This document shows, piece after piece, positions 2,943 to 13,488 of a stretch of 64,000 bases of DNA. The DNA is taken from assembly GCF_000024965.1 (NCBI RefSeq), contig NC_013530.1:434001-498000 (forward strand), written 5' to 3'. Origin of the DNA: Xylanimonas cellulosilytica DSM 15894. Its GTDB lineage: Bacteria; Actinomycetota; Actinomycetes; Actinomycetales; Cellulomonadaceae. The notes beneath the pieces are model-generated. The model saw only the letters and a list, made by a program, of their open reading frames with translations, was not told the DNA's origin and made no database searches. A program made the position numbers and the translations under genes. The stretch's first letter is position 1; the number at the start of each line of letters is the position of its first letter.

Positions 2943-3122
2943 GAGAACGCCCGGCGGCCGATGACAAGAACGCCCGGTGGTCGATGCCAAGAACGCCCGG
3001 TGGTCGAGCCTGTCGAGACCATCCCACAGCGTGGTGGGGTGGTTTCGACAGGCTCGACCACCGGGCGTTCGGTCTCGACAGGCTCGACCACCGGGTCAGG
3101 TGGTTGAGCCTGTCGAGACCAC
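2943..3122. repeat. Intergenic repeat cluster (23-bp direct repeats plus four inverted/direct copies of a REP-like unit)
   Basis: The gap between the convergent GH39 and GH67 genes holds three 23-bp tandem units with AACGCCCGG at 2946, 2969 and 2992. Four copies of a 21-23 bp unit with core GAGCCTGTCGA follow: forward at 3000-3022 and 3100-3122, reverse at 3039-3061 and 3071-3091. Opposed copies can fold into long hairpins, so the cluster may also end transcription from both sides. The same unit recurs at 58193-58471. No open gene or transposase is present. Confidence 0.85.
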
Positions 3123-3139
3123 CGGGCGTTCGGGGCCCG

Positions 3140-5179
3140 TCAGTAGATCGTGCGGCCCTGGGCGTCCGGGATGCCGGACTTGCGCAGGAAGTACGTGTTG
3201 ATGATGTCGCGCCAGTCCGTCGTCGAGCGGAGCTGCTCGGCGAAGCGGTCCGTGACGCGGGCGGCGAGGTCGGCGGGGAACTCGCCGGCCGCCGCCTCCC
3301 ACGCGGCGATGGACGACCGCACGCGCTCCAGGCCGTCGAAGTGCGTGTCGTACACGTGCTGGATCACGGTCTTGCCGCTGTGCAGCACGTGCGTGTACGG
3401 CACGTGGTGGAAGAACAGCACCAGCTCGTCGGGGCACGTCTCGACGGACTCGTACACGGAGGACCACGGCTCGGGGTACTGGGCCGTGTAACCGGTGCCG
3501 GTCGCCACGGTGCGGTCGACGCCCACGCCGTCGCGGTCCGCGAAGTGGTAGGTGCCCCACGGGGTGTACTCGTAGCCGTCGGGCGAAGGGCCGTAGTGGG
3601 TGTGCGGGTACACCATGAAGCACACGCCGAGCGGGGCGGTGTACATCTCGTACGTCTCCCACGACTCGTCGAGGATCGTGTGGATCGTCGAGCGCACCTC
3701 GGCGGGAGCGCCGGGGAACGTCAGGCCGGTCCACTCGTCGAGGATCGCGATCGGGTCCGCCGTCGGGTCCCAGGTCAGGCGACCCCACGCGTACAGGTTG
3801 GCCTGCGAGAACGGGTGCCCGGTCCAGAAGACGTCGTCGCCTACGTTGGACACGGCGGCGAACCCGCCGGCGTGACCACCGGGGCCGCGCCCGACGGCGA
3901 TGTCCGCCATCGTCGCGGAGCCCTCGCCCCAGTACGGGAACGACAGCAGCTCGGACCACTGGCGGCCCAGGTACACGGCGTGCTTCTGGTGGCCCAGGTA
4001 CTCGGTGGTCACCTGGAACTCGGCGGCCACGCGCGTGTTCGGCATCGCAGCGATGGCCGGCGAGGTCGCCTCGCGCACCTGGAAGTCGAGCGGCCCGTGC
4101 TTGATCTGCACGATGACGTTGTCGGCGAAGGTGCCGTCGTAGGGGGCGAAGTGCTGGAAGGCGGCCTTGGCGCGGTCCGTCTTGCGGTCGCGCCAGTCCT
4201 GCTCGTGGTTGTAGACGAACGCGCGCCAGTGGATCAGCCCGCCGTGCGGGGCGACGGCGGCGGCGAGCATGTTGGCGCCGTCGGCGTGGGTGCGACCGTA
4301 GGCGAACGGGCCGGGCTGGCCCTCGGAGTCGGCCTTGATGACGAACCCGCCGAAGTCGGGGATCGCGGCCCACACGCGGTCGGCGGCGCCGGCCCACCAC
4401 TGCCGCACCTCGGGGGAGAAGGGGTCCGACGTCGGCAGGCCGCGGAGGCGCACCGGCGAGGCCCACGACACGGAGACGTGCGTGGTGATGCCGTACGGGC
4501 GGAACACGTCCGCGATGCGCACGACGTCGGGCAGCAGGTCGTCGATGAGGCGGGTCTCGAGCGGGCCGACGTTGACGTTGTTGATCGCGACGCGGTTGAT
4601 GCCGGACGCCGCGAGCAGGCGCGCGTACTGCGCGACGCGCGAGAGGTCCTCCCGGACCACGCCGTCGTCGTAGAAGATCGATCCGCCCGAGTAGCCGCGC
4701 TCGACCTGCCCCATGGCGGGGTGGACGACGATGTTGTCCCAGTGGTCGAGCATGCGCAGCGACGTCGCGGGGGCGTGCCGCTCGACGTCGAGGTCGCCGT
4801 GCTCGAACGCCGCCTCGCCGAGGCGCACCACGTGGAACAGTCCGTAGAGCAGCCCGCGCGGGGTCGCCGCGGTGACCCGGGTGACGCCGTTCGTGCGGGC
4901 GACGGTGAACGCCTCGGCGTCGCGGTCGTTGTGAGCGATGACGGCCAGGACCAGGTCCGGTGCGTCGTCGGGGGTGACGACGGCGCCGCCGTGCGTGGCG
5001 ACGGCCGCCTCGACCTCGGCGCGCACGGTGGCGGCCACCTCGGCCTCCAGGCGCGACCACTCGCGCTCGGCGATCTCGACGGCGATGCGGCGGGATCCGA
5101 GCGGCGCGAACGCGGCCTCGGGAAGCCAGGCGGGATGGGCTGCGGGGTGGACGGCGGGATCGACCTGCGCGGTGGTCAC
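3140..5179 (-). CDS. aguA: GH67 alpha-glucuronidase
   Basis: This 679-residue enzyme removes 4-O-methyl-glucuronic acid from the non-reducing terminal xylose of aldouronic acids made by xylanases. GH67 hallmarks include the ERGYSGGSIF tract, GFVIKADSEGQPGP (family acid glutamate), DWRDRKTDRAKAAF, and QIKHGPLDFQ with its catalytic aspartate. Length and the absence of a signal peptide match intracellular GH67 enzymes. I chose the GTG at 5179 because GAGGAG lies 9 nt upstream; the frame extends further but without family similarity. It faces the LacI gene at 5343 across a short region holding an AACGTT-centred palindrome, and converges on the GH39 gene. Confidence 0.93.
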   Translation of the reverse strand: MTTAQVDPAVHPAAHPAWLPEAAFAPLGSRRIAVEIAEREWSRLEAEVAATVRAEVEAAVATHGGAVVTPDDAPDLVLAVIAHNDRDAEAFTVARTNGVTRVTAATPRGLLYGLFHVVRLGEAAFEHGDLDVERHAPATSLRMLDHWDNIVVHPAMGQVERGYSGGSIFYDDGVVREDLSRVAQYARLLAASGINRVAINNVNVGPLETRLIDDLLPDVVRIADVFRPYGITTHVSVSWASPVRLRGLPTSDPFSPEVRQWWAGAADRVWAAIPDFGGFVIKADSEGQPGPFAYGRTHADGANMLAAAVAPHGGLIHWRAFVYNHEQDWRDRKTDRAKAAFQHFAPYDGTFADNVIVQIKHGPLDFQVREATSPAIAAMPNTRVAAEFQVTTEYLGHQKHAVYLGRQWSELLSFPYWGEGSATMADIAVGRGPGGHAGGFAAVSNVGDDVFWTGHPFSQANLYAWGRLTWDPTADPIAILDEWTGLTFPGAPAEVRSTIHTILDESWETYEMYTAPLGVCFMVYPHTHYGPSPDGYEYTPWGTYHFADRDGVGVDRTVATGTGYTAQYPEPWSSVYESVETCPDELVLFFHHVPYTHVLHSGKTVIQHVYDTHFDGLERVRSSIAAWEAAAGEFPADLAARVTDRFAEQLRSTTDWRDIINTYFLRKSGIPDAQGRTIY

Positions 5180-5223
5180 GGCGCTGTGCTCCTCGGGTGT
5201 GGGGGCGGCGGAAACCCGCCGTC

Positions 5224-5237
5224 TGAGAACGTTTGCA
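5224..5237. promoter_or_regulatory. LacI-type operator candidate before aguA
   Basis: TGAGAACGTTTGCA is a near-palindrome around a central CG, the usual form of LacI-family operators. It lies 45 bp upstream of the aguA start and just downstream of a CATTATG stretch (5238-5244 on the minus strand) that could be the -10 region. Repression by the divergent LacI product at 5343 is the simplest reading. Confidence 0.55.
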
Positions 5238-5342
5238 GCATAATGGCCCCCACACGCGGCCACCCGGTCGGGTGGCGAACAGACCCCTGGTTCGGCGCGC
5301 AAGGCTGCGGTCGGTAGGGGCCGGATCGGTGAGGAGGTCCCG

Positions 5343-8370: not shown

Positions 8371-9075
8371 GTGCGCACCCATGAGCGAGTCCTGGCCCAG
8401 ATCGAGGAGAACCTGCGCACCGGCGCGTGGGCCCTCGGTGAGCGACTGCCCGGGGAGCGCGCGCTGGCCGAACAGATGGGCGTCTCGCGCCCCTCGGTCC
8501 GGGAGGCCGTCCGCGTCCTGGAGGCCATGGGCATCGTCCGTACCGCCGTCGGCTCCGGGCCCGACGCCGGAGCCACCGTCGTCGACCGCCCCGCCGCAGG
8601 GCTCGGTGCCGCCGTCCGCCTGCACATCGCGTCCGGCACGCTCCCGGTCCGCGACGTCGTCGCCACCCGTGCCGCGCTCGAGACGTGGGCCGTCGGGCAG
8701 GCTGCCGCCCGGTTCGACCCCGACACGGACCTCACCGAGGCCCAGCGGCTGCTCGAGGAGATGACGGACCCCGACCTGACGGCGGCCGAGTTCGTGCAGC
8801 TCGACCAGCAGTTCCACCTGACCCTGGTGCAGCTCGGCGGCAACCAGCTCGTCGAGGCGATCCTCGGCGGCCTGCGCACCGCCGTCGGGCACTACGTCAC
8901 CGCGGGTGTGGAGCGCATCGAGGCCTGGGACGTCGTCAGCAACCGCCTGTGCGCCGAGCACCGCGCGCTGTTCGCCGCCATCGTGGGGCGCGACACCGGC
9001 GCCGCCGAGAAGCTCGCCCACGACCACATCTGGGGTTTCTACGAGGAGACGGGCCTGGCCTCGGAGAACGCGTAG
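8371..9075 (+). CDS. GntR family regulator, FadR/FCD subfamily
   Basis: The 234-residue protein has an N-terminal winged helix (about residues 5-72) with the GntR core LPGERALAEQMGVSRPSVREAVRVLEAMG, then an all-helical FCD ligand domain with metal-site histidines in QFHLTLVQLGG, AEHRALFAAI and AHDHI. Such proteins usually repress genes for organic-acid or sugar-acid catabolism. The transcript appears leaderless: TAGACT at 8359-8364 lies 6 nt before the GTG and no ribosome site is present. The palindrome at 8338-8358 suggests autoregulation. Targets could be the adjacent LLM-oxidase fusion gene or the divergent kinase gene; neither is shown. Confidence 0.88.
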   Translation: MRTHERVLAQIEENLRTGAWALGERLPGERALAEQMGVSRPSVREAVRVLEAMGIVRTAVGSGPDAGATVVDRPAAGLGAAVRLHIASGTLPVRDVVATRAALETWAVGQAAARFDPDTDLTEAQRLLEEMTDPDLTAAEFVQLDQQFHLTLVQLGGNQLVEAILGGLRTAVGHYVTAGVERIEAWDVVSNRLCAEHRALFAAIVGRDTGAAEKLAHDHIWGFYEETGLASENA

Positions 9076-9121: not shown

Positions 9122-11383
9122 ATGACGGACTACGGCCACGACCTGGCCTTCGGCAGCTTCATCACCCCGACGCATCAGGACCCGCAGCAGCCCGTCCGGC
9201 TCGCCCGGCTCAGCGAGGACGTCGGCCTCGACCTCGTCACCTTCCAGGACCACCCCTACCAGCCGGCCTTCCATGACACGTGGACGCTGCTGACCTGGGT
9301 GGCCGCCGCCACGGAACGCGTCACGGTGTCCGGCAACGTCCTCAACCTGCCGCTGCGCCCGCCGGCCGTCCTCGCCCGGGCGGTCGCGTCGCTCGATCTG
9401 CTCAGCGGTGGTCGCGCGGCCCTGGGCATCGGCGCCGGCGGCTTCTGGGACCCCATCGTCGCGATGGGCGGAACCCGCCTGAGCCCCGGCGAGTCCGTCG
9501 ACGCGCTCGGCGAGGCCCTCGACGTCATCCGTGAGCTGTGGGACACCACCGACCGCCGGGCCGTGCGGGTCGAGGGTGAGCACCACCGCGTCGTCGGCGC
9601 GAAGCGCGGCCCCGCGCCCGCGCACGACGTGCCGATCTGGGTGGGCGCCTACAAGCCGCGCATGCTGCGGCTGGTCGCCGAGAAGGCCGACGGCTGGCTG
9701 CCGTCGGCGCCCTACCTGAAGGACGGCGACCTGGCCCGCGGCAACGCCGTCATCGACGAGGCGGCCGTCGCCGCGGGGCGCGATCCCGCCGAGATCCGCC
9801 GCCTGCTCAATCTGGGTGCCCCCGGCGGGAGCACCGAGCAGTGGATCGACGAGCTGGTCCGCCTCGCCGTCGAGGACGGCATCGGCACGTTCATCGCGAT
9901 GGGCGACGACCCCGACGTCATCCGCCGCTTCGGCTCCGAGGTCGCACCCGCGGTGCGCGAGGCCGTCGCCGCCGAGCGCGCGTCCCGCGGCACCGTCCCC
10001 GCCGCGTCCCGCCGCGGGGCCGCCGCCGTCGCGCTGCGCCGCGAGGGCATCGCGTACGACGACGTCCCGCGGTCGTTACAGGCCCGAGCGGTCGAACCGG
10101 GCGACAAGGCCTACGCCGGACTGCGGCACAACTACCTGCGCTCCGGGGCGCCCGGGCTCGTCCTGCGCCCGCGCGACGCCGAGGAGGTCGCCGACGCGAT
10201 CACCTTCGCCCGCACGCAGGTCGGCGCGAGCCACGGCGGCGTCGAGCTCGGCGTGCGGTCCGGCGGGCACGGCATCAGCGGGCGGTCCACCAACGACGGC
10301 GGCATCGTCGTCGACCTCGGCGCGCTCGACGGGATCGAGGTGCTCGACGAGGCCACGCGCCGCGTGCGCGTCGGGGCCGGGGCGACCTGGGGCGAGGTCG
10401 CCGCCGCGCTGCAGCCGCACGGCTGGGCGATCACCTCCGGCGACTATGGCGGCGTCGGCGTCGGCGGCCTCGCGACGACGGCGGGCATCGGGCTGCTCGG
10501 CCGCTCGCAGGGGCTGACGATCGACCACGTCGTCGCCGCCGACGTCGTGACCGCGGACGGGCGGCTCGTGCGGGCCTCCGCCGACGAGAACCCCGAGCTG
10601 TTCTGGGGGCTGCGCGGCGCCGGGGCGAACCTCGGCGCCGTCACCTCCTTCGAGCTCGAGGCCGGGGCGCTCGGCGACGTCGTCTACTCGCAGATGACGC
10701 TCGACGCCGCCGACACCGCCGGGCTGCTCGAGCGGTGGGGCGCCGTCGTCGAGTCCGCGCCGCGCGAGCTGACCTCGTTCCTCATCCTGTCGCCCCCGCG
10801 GCGCGGGCAGCAGCCCGTCGCCCAGCTCATGACCGTGTGGGCGGGGGAGGACACCGACGCCGCGATCACCCAGCTCGAGGCGCTCGCGGACAGCGGACCG
10901 CTCCTGGCCCACCAGGCGTACCTGCTGCCGTACACCGGCGTCGTGCAGCCGGCCGAGAGGCATCACGCGGGCGGGGGAGACCCGGCCGTCCGCTCCACGC
11001 TCGTCACCCACCTGACCGACGACGTCACGCGGGCGTTCGAGAAGGTCGCCTGGTCCGGCGAGGCGTACTTCCTGCAGGTGCGGGCCACCGGTGGCGCGGC
11101 GCACGACGTCGCCCCCGACGCCACGGCGTACGCCCACCGGCACCAGAACTTCCTGCTCACCGCGATGGGTGCCTCGCAGCCCTGGCTCGACCCGCTGTGG
11201 GACGAGCTGATGGGGCCGCACGCCGACGGGCTCTACCTGTCCTTCGACACCGACACCCGCGCCGAACGGCTTGCCGACGCGTTCCCCGGCCGCACCCTGG
11301 ACCGGCTGCGGGCGCTCAAGGCGCAGTGGGACCCGAGCTGCGTCTTCCGCTCCAACTTCCCGATCCCGCCGCTCGGCGCCTGA
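9122..11383 (+). CDS. Fusion: LLM class flavin oxidoreductase plus BBE-type FAD-linked oxidase
   Basis: One 753-residue open frame joins two redox enzymes. Residues 1 to about 285 form a luciferase-like TIM barrel resembling F420/FMN-dependent LLM oxidoreductases (AFGSFITPTHQDP, ALGIGAGGFWDP, PIWVGAYKPRMLRL). After a linker, residues about 315-750 form a PCMH-type FAD oxidase with VRSGGHGISGRS, whose His (about 381) is the usual covalent FAD site, and GDYGGVGVGGLATTAGIG. The tail RSNFPIPP matches the berberine-bridge C-terminal motif. The cysteine that makes a second flavin link in some BBE enzymes is not apparent. No stop or frameshift separates the halves. The substrate is unknown. The ribosome site is weak. 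Confidence 0.85.
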   Translation: MTDYGHDLAFGSFITPTHQDPQQPVRLARLSEDVGLDLVTFQDHPYQPAFHDTWTLLTWVAAATERVTVSGNVLNLPLRPPAVLARAVASLDLLSGGRAALGIGAGGFWDPIVAMGGTRLSPGESVDALGEALDVIRELWDTTDRRAVRVEGEHHRVVGAKRGPAPAHDVPIWVGAYKPRMLRLVAEKADGWLPSAPYLKDGDLARGNAVIDEAAVAAGRDPAEIRRLLNLGAPGGSTEQWIDELVRLAVEDGIGTFIAMGDDPDVIRRFGSEVAPAVREAVAAERASRGTVPAASRRGAAAVALRREGIAYDDVPRSLQARAVEPGDKAYAGLRHNYLRSGAPGLVLRPRDAEEVADAITFARTQVGASHGGVELGVRSGGHGISGRSTNDGGIVVDLGALDGIEVLDEATRRVRVGAGATWGEVAAALQPHGWAITSGDYGGVGVGGLATTAGIGLLGRSQGLTIDHVVAADVVTADGRLVRASADENPELFWGLRGAGANLGAVTSFELEAGALGDVVYSQMTLDAADTAGLLERWGAVVESAPRELTSFLILSPPRRGQQPVAQLMTVWAGEDTDAAITQLEALADSGPLLAHQAYLLPYTGVVQPAERHHAGGGDPAVRSTLVTHLTDDVTRAFEKVAWSGEAYFLQVRATGGAAHDVAPDATAYAHRHQNFLLTAMGASQPWLDPLWDELMGPHADGLYLSFDTDTRAERLADAFPGRTLDRLRALKAQWDPSCVFRSNFPIPPLGA

Positions 11384-11436: not shown

Positions 11437-12498
11437 ATGCCGATCGCACCCCGCTACCTCGCCGCCGAGGACCGCTACGCGACCATGACCTACCGCCGCA
11501 CCGGCCGCTCGGGGCTCGACCTGCCCGCGCTGTCGCTCGGCCTGTGGCACAACTTCGGCGACACGACGCCGTTCCAGACCCAGCGGGACGTCGCGCGCCG
11601 CGCGTTCGACCTGGGCATCACGCACTTCGACCTGGCGAACAACTACGGCCCGCCCTACGGCAGCGCCGAGGAGAACTTCGGCCGGATCCTCGAGAAGGAC
11701 CTGCACCCGTACCGCGACGAGCTGATCGTCTCGACCAAGGCGGGCTACGACATGCTGCCCGGCCCGTACGGGGACCACGGTTCGCGCAAGTACCTGCTGT
11801 CCTCGCTCGACGCGTCGCTGGAGCGCATGGGCCTGGACTACGTCGACATCTTCTACCACCACCGCCCCGACCCCTCGACGCCGCTCGAAGAGACGATGGG
11901 TGCGCTCGCCGCGGCGGTCCACAGCGGCAAGGCGCTGTACGTCGGCGTCTCGAACTACTCGGCCGCCCGCACCCGCGAGGCCGCGCAGATCCTCGACGAT
12001 CTCGGCGCCCCGCTGCTGATCCACCAGCCGAGCTACTCGATGTTCAACCGCCACGTCGAGAACGCGTCCCTGGTGGACGGTTACGACGGCCAGCAGTCGG
12101 AGTCGCTGCTCGACGTCGTCGAGGATCTCGGCGTCGGCACGATCGTGTTCAGCCCGCTGCAGCAAGGGCTGCTCACCGGCCGCTACCTGTCGGGCTCGGC
12201 CCCGGCCGGCTCGCGCGCCGCGCGGCCGGACAGCCCGTTCCTGTCGGCGTCCAACCTGTCCGAGACCTACCTGGAGCGCGCGCACGCCCTCAACGAGATC
12301 GCGCAGGGTCGCGACCAGTCGCTCGCCCAGCTCGCCGTCTCCTGGGTGCTGCGCGACAACCGCGTCACGTCGGCCCTGGTCGGCGCGTCGAGCGTCGCCC
12401 AGCTCGAGGACACGGTCGGCGCCCTGGCAGCCGCACCGCTGACCGACGAGGAGCTCGCCGCCATCGACCCCTACGCCGTCGACGGCACGGCCCGCTGA
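11437..12498 (+). CDS. Aldo/keto reductase (YghZ-like)
   Basis: The 353-residue TIM-barrel NADPH oxidoreductase keeps the catalytic tetrad: D65 and Y70 in HFDLANNYG, K101 in VSTKAG, and H141/H142 in DIFYHHR. The insert GYDMLPGPYGDHGSRKYL and overall length match the YghZ/L-glyceraldehyde-3-phosphate reductase branch (AKR14). It should reduce small aldehydes such as methylglyoxal or L-glyceraldehyde 3-phosphate in the cytoplasm. ATG start at 11437 with GAGAGG 8 nt before; an internal ATG (residue 17) is a weaker alternative. A 12-bp hairpin follows at 12516-12555. Confidence 0.9.
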   Translation: MPIAPRYLAAEDRYATMTYRRTGRSGLDLPALSLGLWHNFGDTTPFQTQRDVARRAFDLGITHFDLANNYGPPYGSAEENFGRILEKDLHPYRDELIVSTKAGYDMLPGPYGDHGSRKYLLSSLDASLERMGLDYVDIFYHHRPDPSTPLEETMGALAAAVHSGKALYVGVSNYSAARTREAAQILDDLGAPLLIHQPSYSMFNRHVENASLVDGYDGQQSESLLDVVEDLGVGTIVFSPLQQGLLTGRYLSGSAPAGSRAARPDSPFLSASNLSETYLERAHALNEIAQGRDQSLAQLAVSWVLRDNRVTSALVGASSVAQLEDTVGALAAAPLTDEELAAIDPYAVDGTAR

Positions 12499-12582: not shown

Positions 12583-13488
12583 GTGGCCGTCTGCTGGTTT
12601 GCCGGGCTCACGACGCTCGACGTCGTTCATCGGGCACCTGCCCCGCCCACCCGTAATGGGAAGGTGACCGCGACGCGGCAGGACGTCGCCGCCGGCGGGC
12701 CGGCCGCCAACGCCGCCGTCACGGCTGCCGCGCTCGGTGTGCGAGCCATCCTCGTCACGGCTCTCGGCCAGGGCCCGGTCGCGGCGGCCGCCCGCGCCGA
12801 CCTGGAGGCGCACGGCGTCGAGATCCTCGACACGGCCGCCCCGGACTTCCCGCTCGCGGTCTCGGCGGTGCTCGTCGACGAGCGGACCGGCGAACGCTCG
12901 GTGGTCAGCGCCGACGGCGCCCTCGCCACGGCCCCGCCCCCAGCCACCGAGTCGCTCCATGCCCTGCCCCACCCGGACGCCGTCCTCCTCGACGGCCACC
13001 ACCCGCAGATCGCCCGCGCCGTCCTCACGTTCGTCCAGGCAGCCAACCCGCGCCCGCACCTGCTCCTCGACGCCGGCCGCTGGCGCCCGATCTTCGCCGA
13101 GCTCCTCCCGCATGCCGACATCGCCGCCCTCAGCGACGACTTCCGGGTGCCCGACGCCCCCGACACGGGAGCCGGCGTGTCCGACACTGCCGCTGCCGTA
13201 CTGGCCACGGGAGCGAGCGCCGTCGTCGTGACCCACGGACCGGCCCCGGTCGAGTGGCACACCGCTGACGGCGGCTCTGGGACGGTCCCCGTGCCCGCGA
13301 CTGATGCGCGCGACACCCTGGGTGCTGGCGACGCGTTTCACGGCGCGCTCACGGCAGCCGTGGCCACGGGCGAGGCGCTCCCGGGCGCGATCATCCGCGC
13401 GTCGGCGGTGGCAAGCACCCGCGTCGCCGTCGTCGGCCCGCGCGCCTGGTTGACCCGCCTCGGACCCACCCGTCTGGTCGTCGAATAG
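12583..13488 (+). CDS. PfkB (ribokinase) family carbohydrate kinase
   Basis: The 301-residue cytoplasmic kinase shows PfkB signature 1 as AAGGPAANAAVTAAALG (glycine pair near residues 38-39) and signature 2 as DTLGAGDAFHGAL (about residues 244-256), where the aspartate of GAGD is the catalytic base. It phosphorylates a sugar or nucleoside with ATP; the exact substrate is not evident. The GTG start at 12583 follows GGAGGAG. It ends with a 10-bp hairpin. It lies between the aldo/keto reductase and the PadR gene without a clear operon partner. Confidence 0.85.
   Translation: MAVCWFAGLTTLDVVHRAPAPPTRNGKVTATRQDVAAGGPAANAAVTAAALGVRAILVTALGQGPVAAAARADLEAHGVEILDTAAPDFPLAVSAVLVDERTGERSVVSADGALATAPPPATESLHALPHPDAVLLDGHHPQIARAVLTFVQAANPRPHLLLDAGRWRPIFAELLPHADIAALSDDFRVPDAPDTGAGVSDTAAAVLATGASAVVVTHGPAPVEWHTADGGSGTVPVPATDARDTLGAGDAFHGALTAAVATGEALPGAIIRASAVASTRVAVVGPRAWLTRLGPTRLVVE

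Follow-up and report, generated by a model that had tools for sequence, protein, structure and literature searches.

A predicted two-flavin fusion of an LLM barrel and a BBE-type FAD oxidase, with selective erosion of the fused barrel in tandem relatives

Architecture of the fusion gene

The window analysed here, 64,000 nucleotides from Xylanimonas cellulosilytica DSM 15894, contains a gene that joins two flavoenzyme domains in a single chain. The features of the gene and its neighbours, in window coordinates, are as follows.

8371..9075, + strand: GntR/FCD (FadR-type) regulator, 46 bp upstream of the fusion (Pfam); association limited to close relatives
9122..11383, + strand: fusion gene, 753 aa, LLM flavoenzyme plus BBE/VAO-type FAD oxidase (ORF, Pfam, AlphaFold2)
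9122..9988, + strand: LLM domain spanning residues 1-289, with the (beta/alpha)8 barrel complete (PF00296, E 3.8e-46; AlphaFold2)
9245..9259, + strand: QDHPY motif, residues 42-46, carried by every one of the 62 single fusions and stand-alone LLMs
9653..9655, + strand: codon of K178, a residue that single fusions and stand-alone LLMs keep and that 23/25 LLM domains of tandem fusions have lost
9713..9715, + strand: codon of Y198, likewise kept by single fusions and stand-alone LLMs and lost from 25/25 LLM domains of tandem fusions
9989..10099, + strand: inter-domain segment, residues 290-326, with the family motif RRxGIxYDxVPxxL at ~306-319 (alignments, AlphaFold2)
10100..11380, + strand: BBE/VAO-type FAD oxidase domain, residues 327-753 (PF01565 and PF08031; EncM top by sequence and fold)
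10268..10270, + strand: H383, predicted site of an 8-alpha-histidyl bond to FAD, present in all 59 fusions
10439..10456, + strand: G440-V445, in the oxygen-pocket motif SGDYGGV, whose Gly440 and Val445 never vary and are of the oxidase type
11437..12498, + strand: aldo-keto reductase (YghZ-like), downstream; common only to close relatives
12583..13488, + strand: PfkB-type sugar kinase, downstream (Pfam); common only to close relatives

The reading frame runs from the ATG at 9122 to a stop codon ending at 11383 and encodes 753 aa with zero internal stops. Pfam analysis of the protein placed Bac_luciferase at residues 14-230 (E 3.8e-46), FAD_binding_4 at 345-486 (E 2.5e-27) and the BBE C-terminal region at 723-749 (E 1e-4). 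The LLM half scored 158 bits against PF00296, for which the gathering score is 27.9, and belongs to that superfamily, and the C-terminal half has both Pfam domains of the VAO/BBE family (PF01565 and PF08031) as well as its fold. The AlphaFold2 model, for which a 46-row alignment of relatives was the input, had a mean pLDDT of 90.8 and a pTM of 0.79. Every barrel strand of the LLM half is present in the model, with helix 264-289 as the last element, followed by an ordered segment at ~290-326 (pLDDT ~76-90) and then by the VAO/BBE fold. These analyses bear out the original prediction of a single-chain fusion of two flavoenzymes, with Pfam and AlphaFold2 agreeing on an LLM barrel and, together with Foldseek, on a VAO/BBE fold; the linker that it had put near residues 285-315 does exist, but is placed by the model at ~290-326. 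Judged from its sequence, the fusion would be a natural two-flavin enzyme made of two different flavoenzyme folds.

The surrounding genes offer little guidance on the substrate. A GntR relative was near the fusion in four of 28 representative loci and the aldo-keto reductase or PfkB genes in three, and we found no conserved operon, flavin reductase or other gene near the fusion across these 28. Neighbour genes gave no substrate clue beyond the close relatives, and the idea that the FadR-type regulator senses the substrate or product is weakened by its presence at only 4/28 loci. We regard the regulator, reductase and kinase as local neighbours. Elsewhere in the window, an ORF of 777 aa (2984-5314, + strand) is without a Pfam or NCBIfam match at E 0.001.

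Recurrence of the fusion

The search for the same architecture elsewhere recovered 59 loci with both domains in one open frame without a stop, at 42-87% identity where aligned, and a further seven single-frame fusion loci beyond these. The 59 loci were drawn from two collections in which some species are counted twice, and are independent or partly independent. The fusion was found in at least three phyla (Actinomycetota, Chloroflexota and Thermomicrobiota), its carriers including Promicromonosporaceae, Solirubrobacter, Kineosporia, Nocardioides and Paractinoplanes, together with one Chloroflexi and one Thermomicrobiales MAG. Several species of the window's own genus have it, as do ~10 of 396 evenly sampled Actinomycetota genomes.

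An architecture as unusual as this speaks, taken alone, for a sequencing or assembly artefact that joined two genes, and the original prediction had itself named split genes in related strains as the point on which it might fall. More than 50 loci have one frame, and therefore the fusion is no sequencing artefact; with complete genomes among the 59 single-frame relatives, we give that explanation virtually no chance, and the fusion withstands the comparison with related strains, being unbroken at the 59 loci and at the other seven. The search of the non-subscription literature found no paper on the fusion architecture, in keeping with the earlier statement that such a fusion has no defined function.

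The FAD oxidase half

In Foldseek, EncM was the top-ranking PDB structure for the second half (E 2.5e-38), and it also came first in phmmer (E ~1e-50), followed by 6-hydroxynicotine oxidase. The covalent-FAD oxidase that was originally predicted, with its linking His at about residue 381, is upheld as a predicted His-linked oxidase, but the residue is H383, found in all 59 fusions. At the position of Y442, which is Cys in bicovalent enzymes, the fusions have Y, S, F, H or I and none of the 59 has Cys; a bicovalent (6-S-cysteinyl) BBE enzyme was rejected on this ground. The C-terminal half would be a mono-covalent (His383) FAD enzyme of the EncM/6-hydroxynicotine oxidase branch. EncM (3w8w and mutants) likewise has a single histidyl-FAD linkage without the second Cys bond, and 6-hydroxy-D-nicotine oxidase (2bvf) and the plant mono-covalent AtBBE-like 28 share the VAO fold and the His-only linkage, although their overall identity to the fusion is ~20-25%, the substrate site is not shared and they have no LLM domain. 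As here, His or Tyr replaces Cys in mono-covalent BBE-like enzymes, which carry the oxidase-typical valine gatekeeper (PMC4898691).

BBE-like enzymes have two gatekeeper positions, and the combination of Gly with a valine gatekeeper is typical of oxidases (PMC4898691). Both positions, G440 and V445, are invariant in the 59 fusions, and therefore the FAD half is predicted to be an O2-using oxidase. EncM, which has no LLM domain, differs from the family in having T139 where 59/59 fusions have V445. The EncM mutant T139V had oxidase activity (PMC7662398), so N5-oxide chemistry is not expected of the FAD half, and an EncM-type N5-oxygenase was set aside. D662 and R548 are invariant in the fusion family and also occur in two altered members described below (L035 and L076), whereas the nearest stand-alone BBE proteins differ at these positions, a residue pattern that marks a distinct subfamily. 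In one species of the window's genus (G009), the fusion (L025:313-2655) has a Gly-rich insertion in its FAD half, which falls at a poorly predicted loop of the window protein (~residues 367-373).

Single and tandem architectures

The family has two architectures: single fusions, in which the LLM half is intact, and tandem loci, in which the fused LLM half is eroded. The latter pattern is a new finding that the original prediction had missed, and is the more interesting result. In each of the 32 tandem loci the fusion has a stand-alone LLM gene (S gene) as its neighbour, on the same strand in every case; the two genes overlap by 4 bp in 18 of the 32, and both gene orders, S-fusion and fusion-S, are present. 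The window protein is a single fusion with an intact LLM active-site face in its sequence. The QDHPY motif was present in 30/30 single fusions and missing from the eight most eroded tandem fusions; its H44 presumably stands at the position of the catalytic His in known LLM enzymes. Over a reference set of 89 LLM positions at least 95% invariant across single fusions and S genes, the single fusions and the S genes each kept 98% of the invariant residues and the tandem fusions kept 76%, residue losses in the latter, such as those of K178 and Y198, being counted over 25 aligned LLM domains.

The erosion is selective, in that the active-site face is lost and the fold is kept. The eight most eroded tandem fusions have lost most active-site loops, while the fold and helices 2-3 remain: they keep 19% of the invariant residues on the C-terminal (active-site) face, 71% of those in helices and 79% of the rest (p = 4e-10 by a Mann-Whitney test that takes positions as units although they are not wholly independent), with helix 2 keeping 71% and helix 3 keeping 88%. 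AlphaFold2 still predicted a barrel for one eroded member (L028, mean pLDDT 85.7), but gave the loops that follow strands 2 and 4 a pLDDT under 50, unlike those of the window protein. An intact LLM gene is adjacent wherever the fused LLM is eroded, so a catalytic LLM is conserved in each case.

A BBE protein of Paractinoplanes bogorensis (L076:5782-7437) carries an LLM remnant of ~50 residues matching helix 2 - strand 3 - helix 3. The remnant scored 12.8 bits with the tandem-fusion profile and 9.7 bits with the all-LLM profile, compared with a maximum of 4.7 in 2000 shuffles, and we conclude with modest confidence that the LLM half of this species has shrunk to that stretch. Another locus (L035/L155) was considered as separate LLM and BBE genes; its frames show a tandem fusion with an in-frame stop and a frameshift, and it was left out as a separate architecture. 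The interrupted tandem fusion at L155:2440-5680 (G024) reflects decay or sequencing error.

Evolutionary history

The S genes and the LLM halves of single fusions form one group in the LLM tree, from which the tandem-fusion LLMs lie apart; the BBE tree mixes the single and the tandem forms inside one well-supported clade. The two trees disagree on where the forms interconverted, and the eroded branches are long. The simplest reading of these sequences is that one form arose from the other more than once. A chimera test on single fusions nested among tandem ones gave no clear breakpoint between the stand-alone and fused LLM copies.

The BBE half has been lost, and a stand-alone LLM gene persists, in two lineages (G005/L064 and G029/L034). 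In Xylanimicrobium pachnodae (L064) only the LLM half is left, with a stop just after residue 286 and no BBE remnant found near the gene, and G005, of the same genus, looks identical. LLM genes of the subfamily without a BBE partner were found at L032/L064, L034, L036, L037 and L077, so the coupling of LLM and BBE appears to be common rather than obligate.

Cofactor of the LLM half

The original prediction allowed an F420/FMN or FMN-dependent reaction, and our results point both ways on F420 and FMN: the nearest solved LLMs are F420 enzymes, but FO synthase is absent from the window genome and from 21 of the 25 carriers. The closest solved relative of the LLM half is Mer (1z69, E 9e-22), among the F420-dependent LLM enzymes (Mer, FGD, Adf; TIGR03619 group). 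Unlike that group, the LLM half falls below every NCBIfam LLM cut-off, scoring 126.4 bits against the curated cut-off of 166.9 for the F420 subfamily TIGR03619, and comes from a genome without FO synthase: neither the family models for CofG/CofH/FbiC nor a relative's FbiC protein as query found one there, and both searches do detect FbiC in ten relatives. FbiC was present in 4/25 carriers, the two methods agreeing on its absence from the others. Late-step F420 genes are present in the window genome, at these positions:

G000 C1:3341012-3342600 (L119:12998-14673) and C1:1219485-1220105: cofD, cofC and cofE

FO synthase is missing, as is CofD in six carriers that lack FbiC too, and therefore FMN is somewhat more likely than F420 as the LLM cofactor. 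The absence of FO synthase seemed decisive against F420, but the presence of cofC, cofD and cofE removes this argument. In 23/57 relatives, too, CofD and CofE occur without FbiC, a gap that suggests FO salvage or an unrecognised FO route. As an alternative, the LLM half could be a Mer/FGD-like hydride transferase, dependent on F420, that acts together with the FAD oxidase and draws its F420 from imported FO. The solved relatives and the cof genes favour such an enzyme, as does the presence of CofE in 25/25 fusion carriers compared with 21/32 non-carriers (57 relatives; p = 0.0013, kinship uncorrected); against it stand the missing FO synthase, the carriers lacking CofD and the TIGR03619 score, and we consider it unlikely.

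A proposed two-flavin complex

In bacterial luciferase (LuxAB), helices 2 and 3 form the subunit interface. The kept fold and the eroded active site of the tandem fusions suggest that the LLM half also acts as a handle that assembles a pair. Dimerisation of LLM-type proteins is supported in general (PMC4432964), and the LLM barrels of this family may dimerise through helices 2 and 3 as bacterial luciferase does, so that each LLM dimer would carry two FAD-oxidase arms. In single fusions, the window protein included, both barrels of the homodimer would be catalytic; in tandem lineages the separate LLM would be the catalytic barrel and pair with the fused barrel, which would keep a scaffold and docking role only, as in LuxA with LuxB. 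The two active sites would then share a small molecule or a pathway: the FAD half would oxidise the substrate with O2 and release H2O2, and the LLM half would carry out another redox reaction, using FMN or F420.

The genes of LuxA and LuxB are likewise tandem and co-oriented, and of the two related barrels that they encode one is catalytic and the other has an eroded active site; among the forms described here only the tandem relatives have such a co-encoded pair. Unlike LuxB, the inactive barrel here bears a second flavoenzyme as its C-terminal half, and no aldehyde or light reaction is implied for the fusion family. Domain atrophy is already known in the bacterial luciferase family from LuxF (PMC4432964). 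We put the proposal as a whole, LLM dimerisation that builds a two-flavin complex with a LuxA/LuxB-like split of labour in the tandem lineages, at a little under an even chance. We hold more tentatively that this is an undescribed two-flavin family in which LLM dimerisation joins a covalent-FAD oxidase to an FMN/F420 site, and in which the fused barrel of tandem loci has lost its activity, serves as a docking subunit and can be reduced to the dimer helices.

The erosion could also mean that the LLM half is a mere dimerisation scaffold in all members and the enzyme a plain BBE-type oxidase, as tandem lineages lose the fused LLM active site with the BBE half intact. However, single fusions keep nearly all of the invariant LLM residues and QDHPY without exception, and the loss occurs only where a second, intact LLM gene adjoins, which makes this explanation quite improbable. 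The two halves might instead be unrelated enzymes, fused without mechanistic coupling and with no more in common than the regulation that one promoter provides. The lack of a conserved operon and the stand-alone LLM genes that outlast BBE loss in two lineages fit such an arrangement, but fusion or adjacency has been kept at 49-60% identity across three phyla, the linker motif is conserved and scaffold residues are retained after active-site loss; we regard it as doubtful and prefer the two-flavin complex.

The tandem loci offer many natural replicates of one event, the loss of the active site from a catalytic barrel when an intact sister copy lies beside it, while the fold and the presumed dimer face persist, and through them the origin of pseudo-enzyme subunits such as LuxB becomes testable outside bioluminescence. 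The fusion also offers a ready-made oxidase/LLM cascade on a single polypeptide, and from its pattern it can be predicted which LLM and BBE genes, where encoded separately, should co-operate. Another species of the window's genus (G002) has a diverged paralogous LLM/BBE pair (L149:3426-5794), encoded by two genes that overlap by ATGA, which is an unfused natural counterpart of the fusion and links the separate and fused forms.
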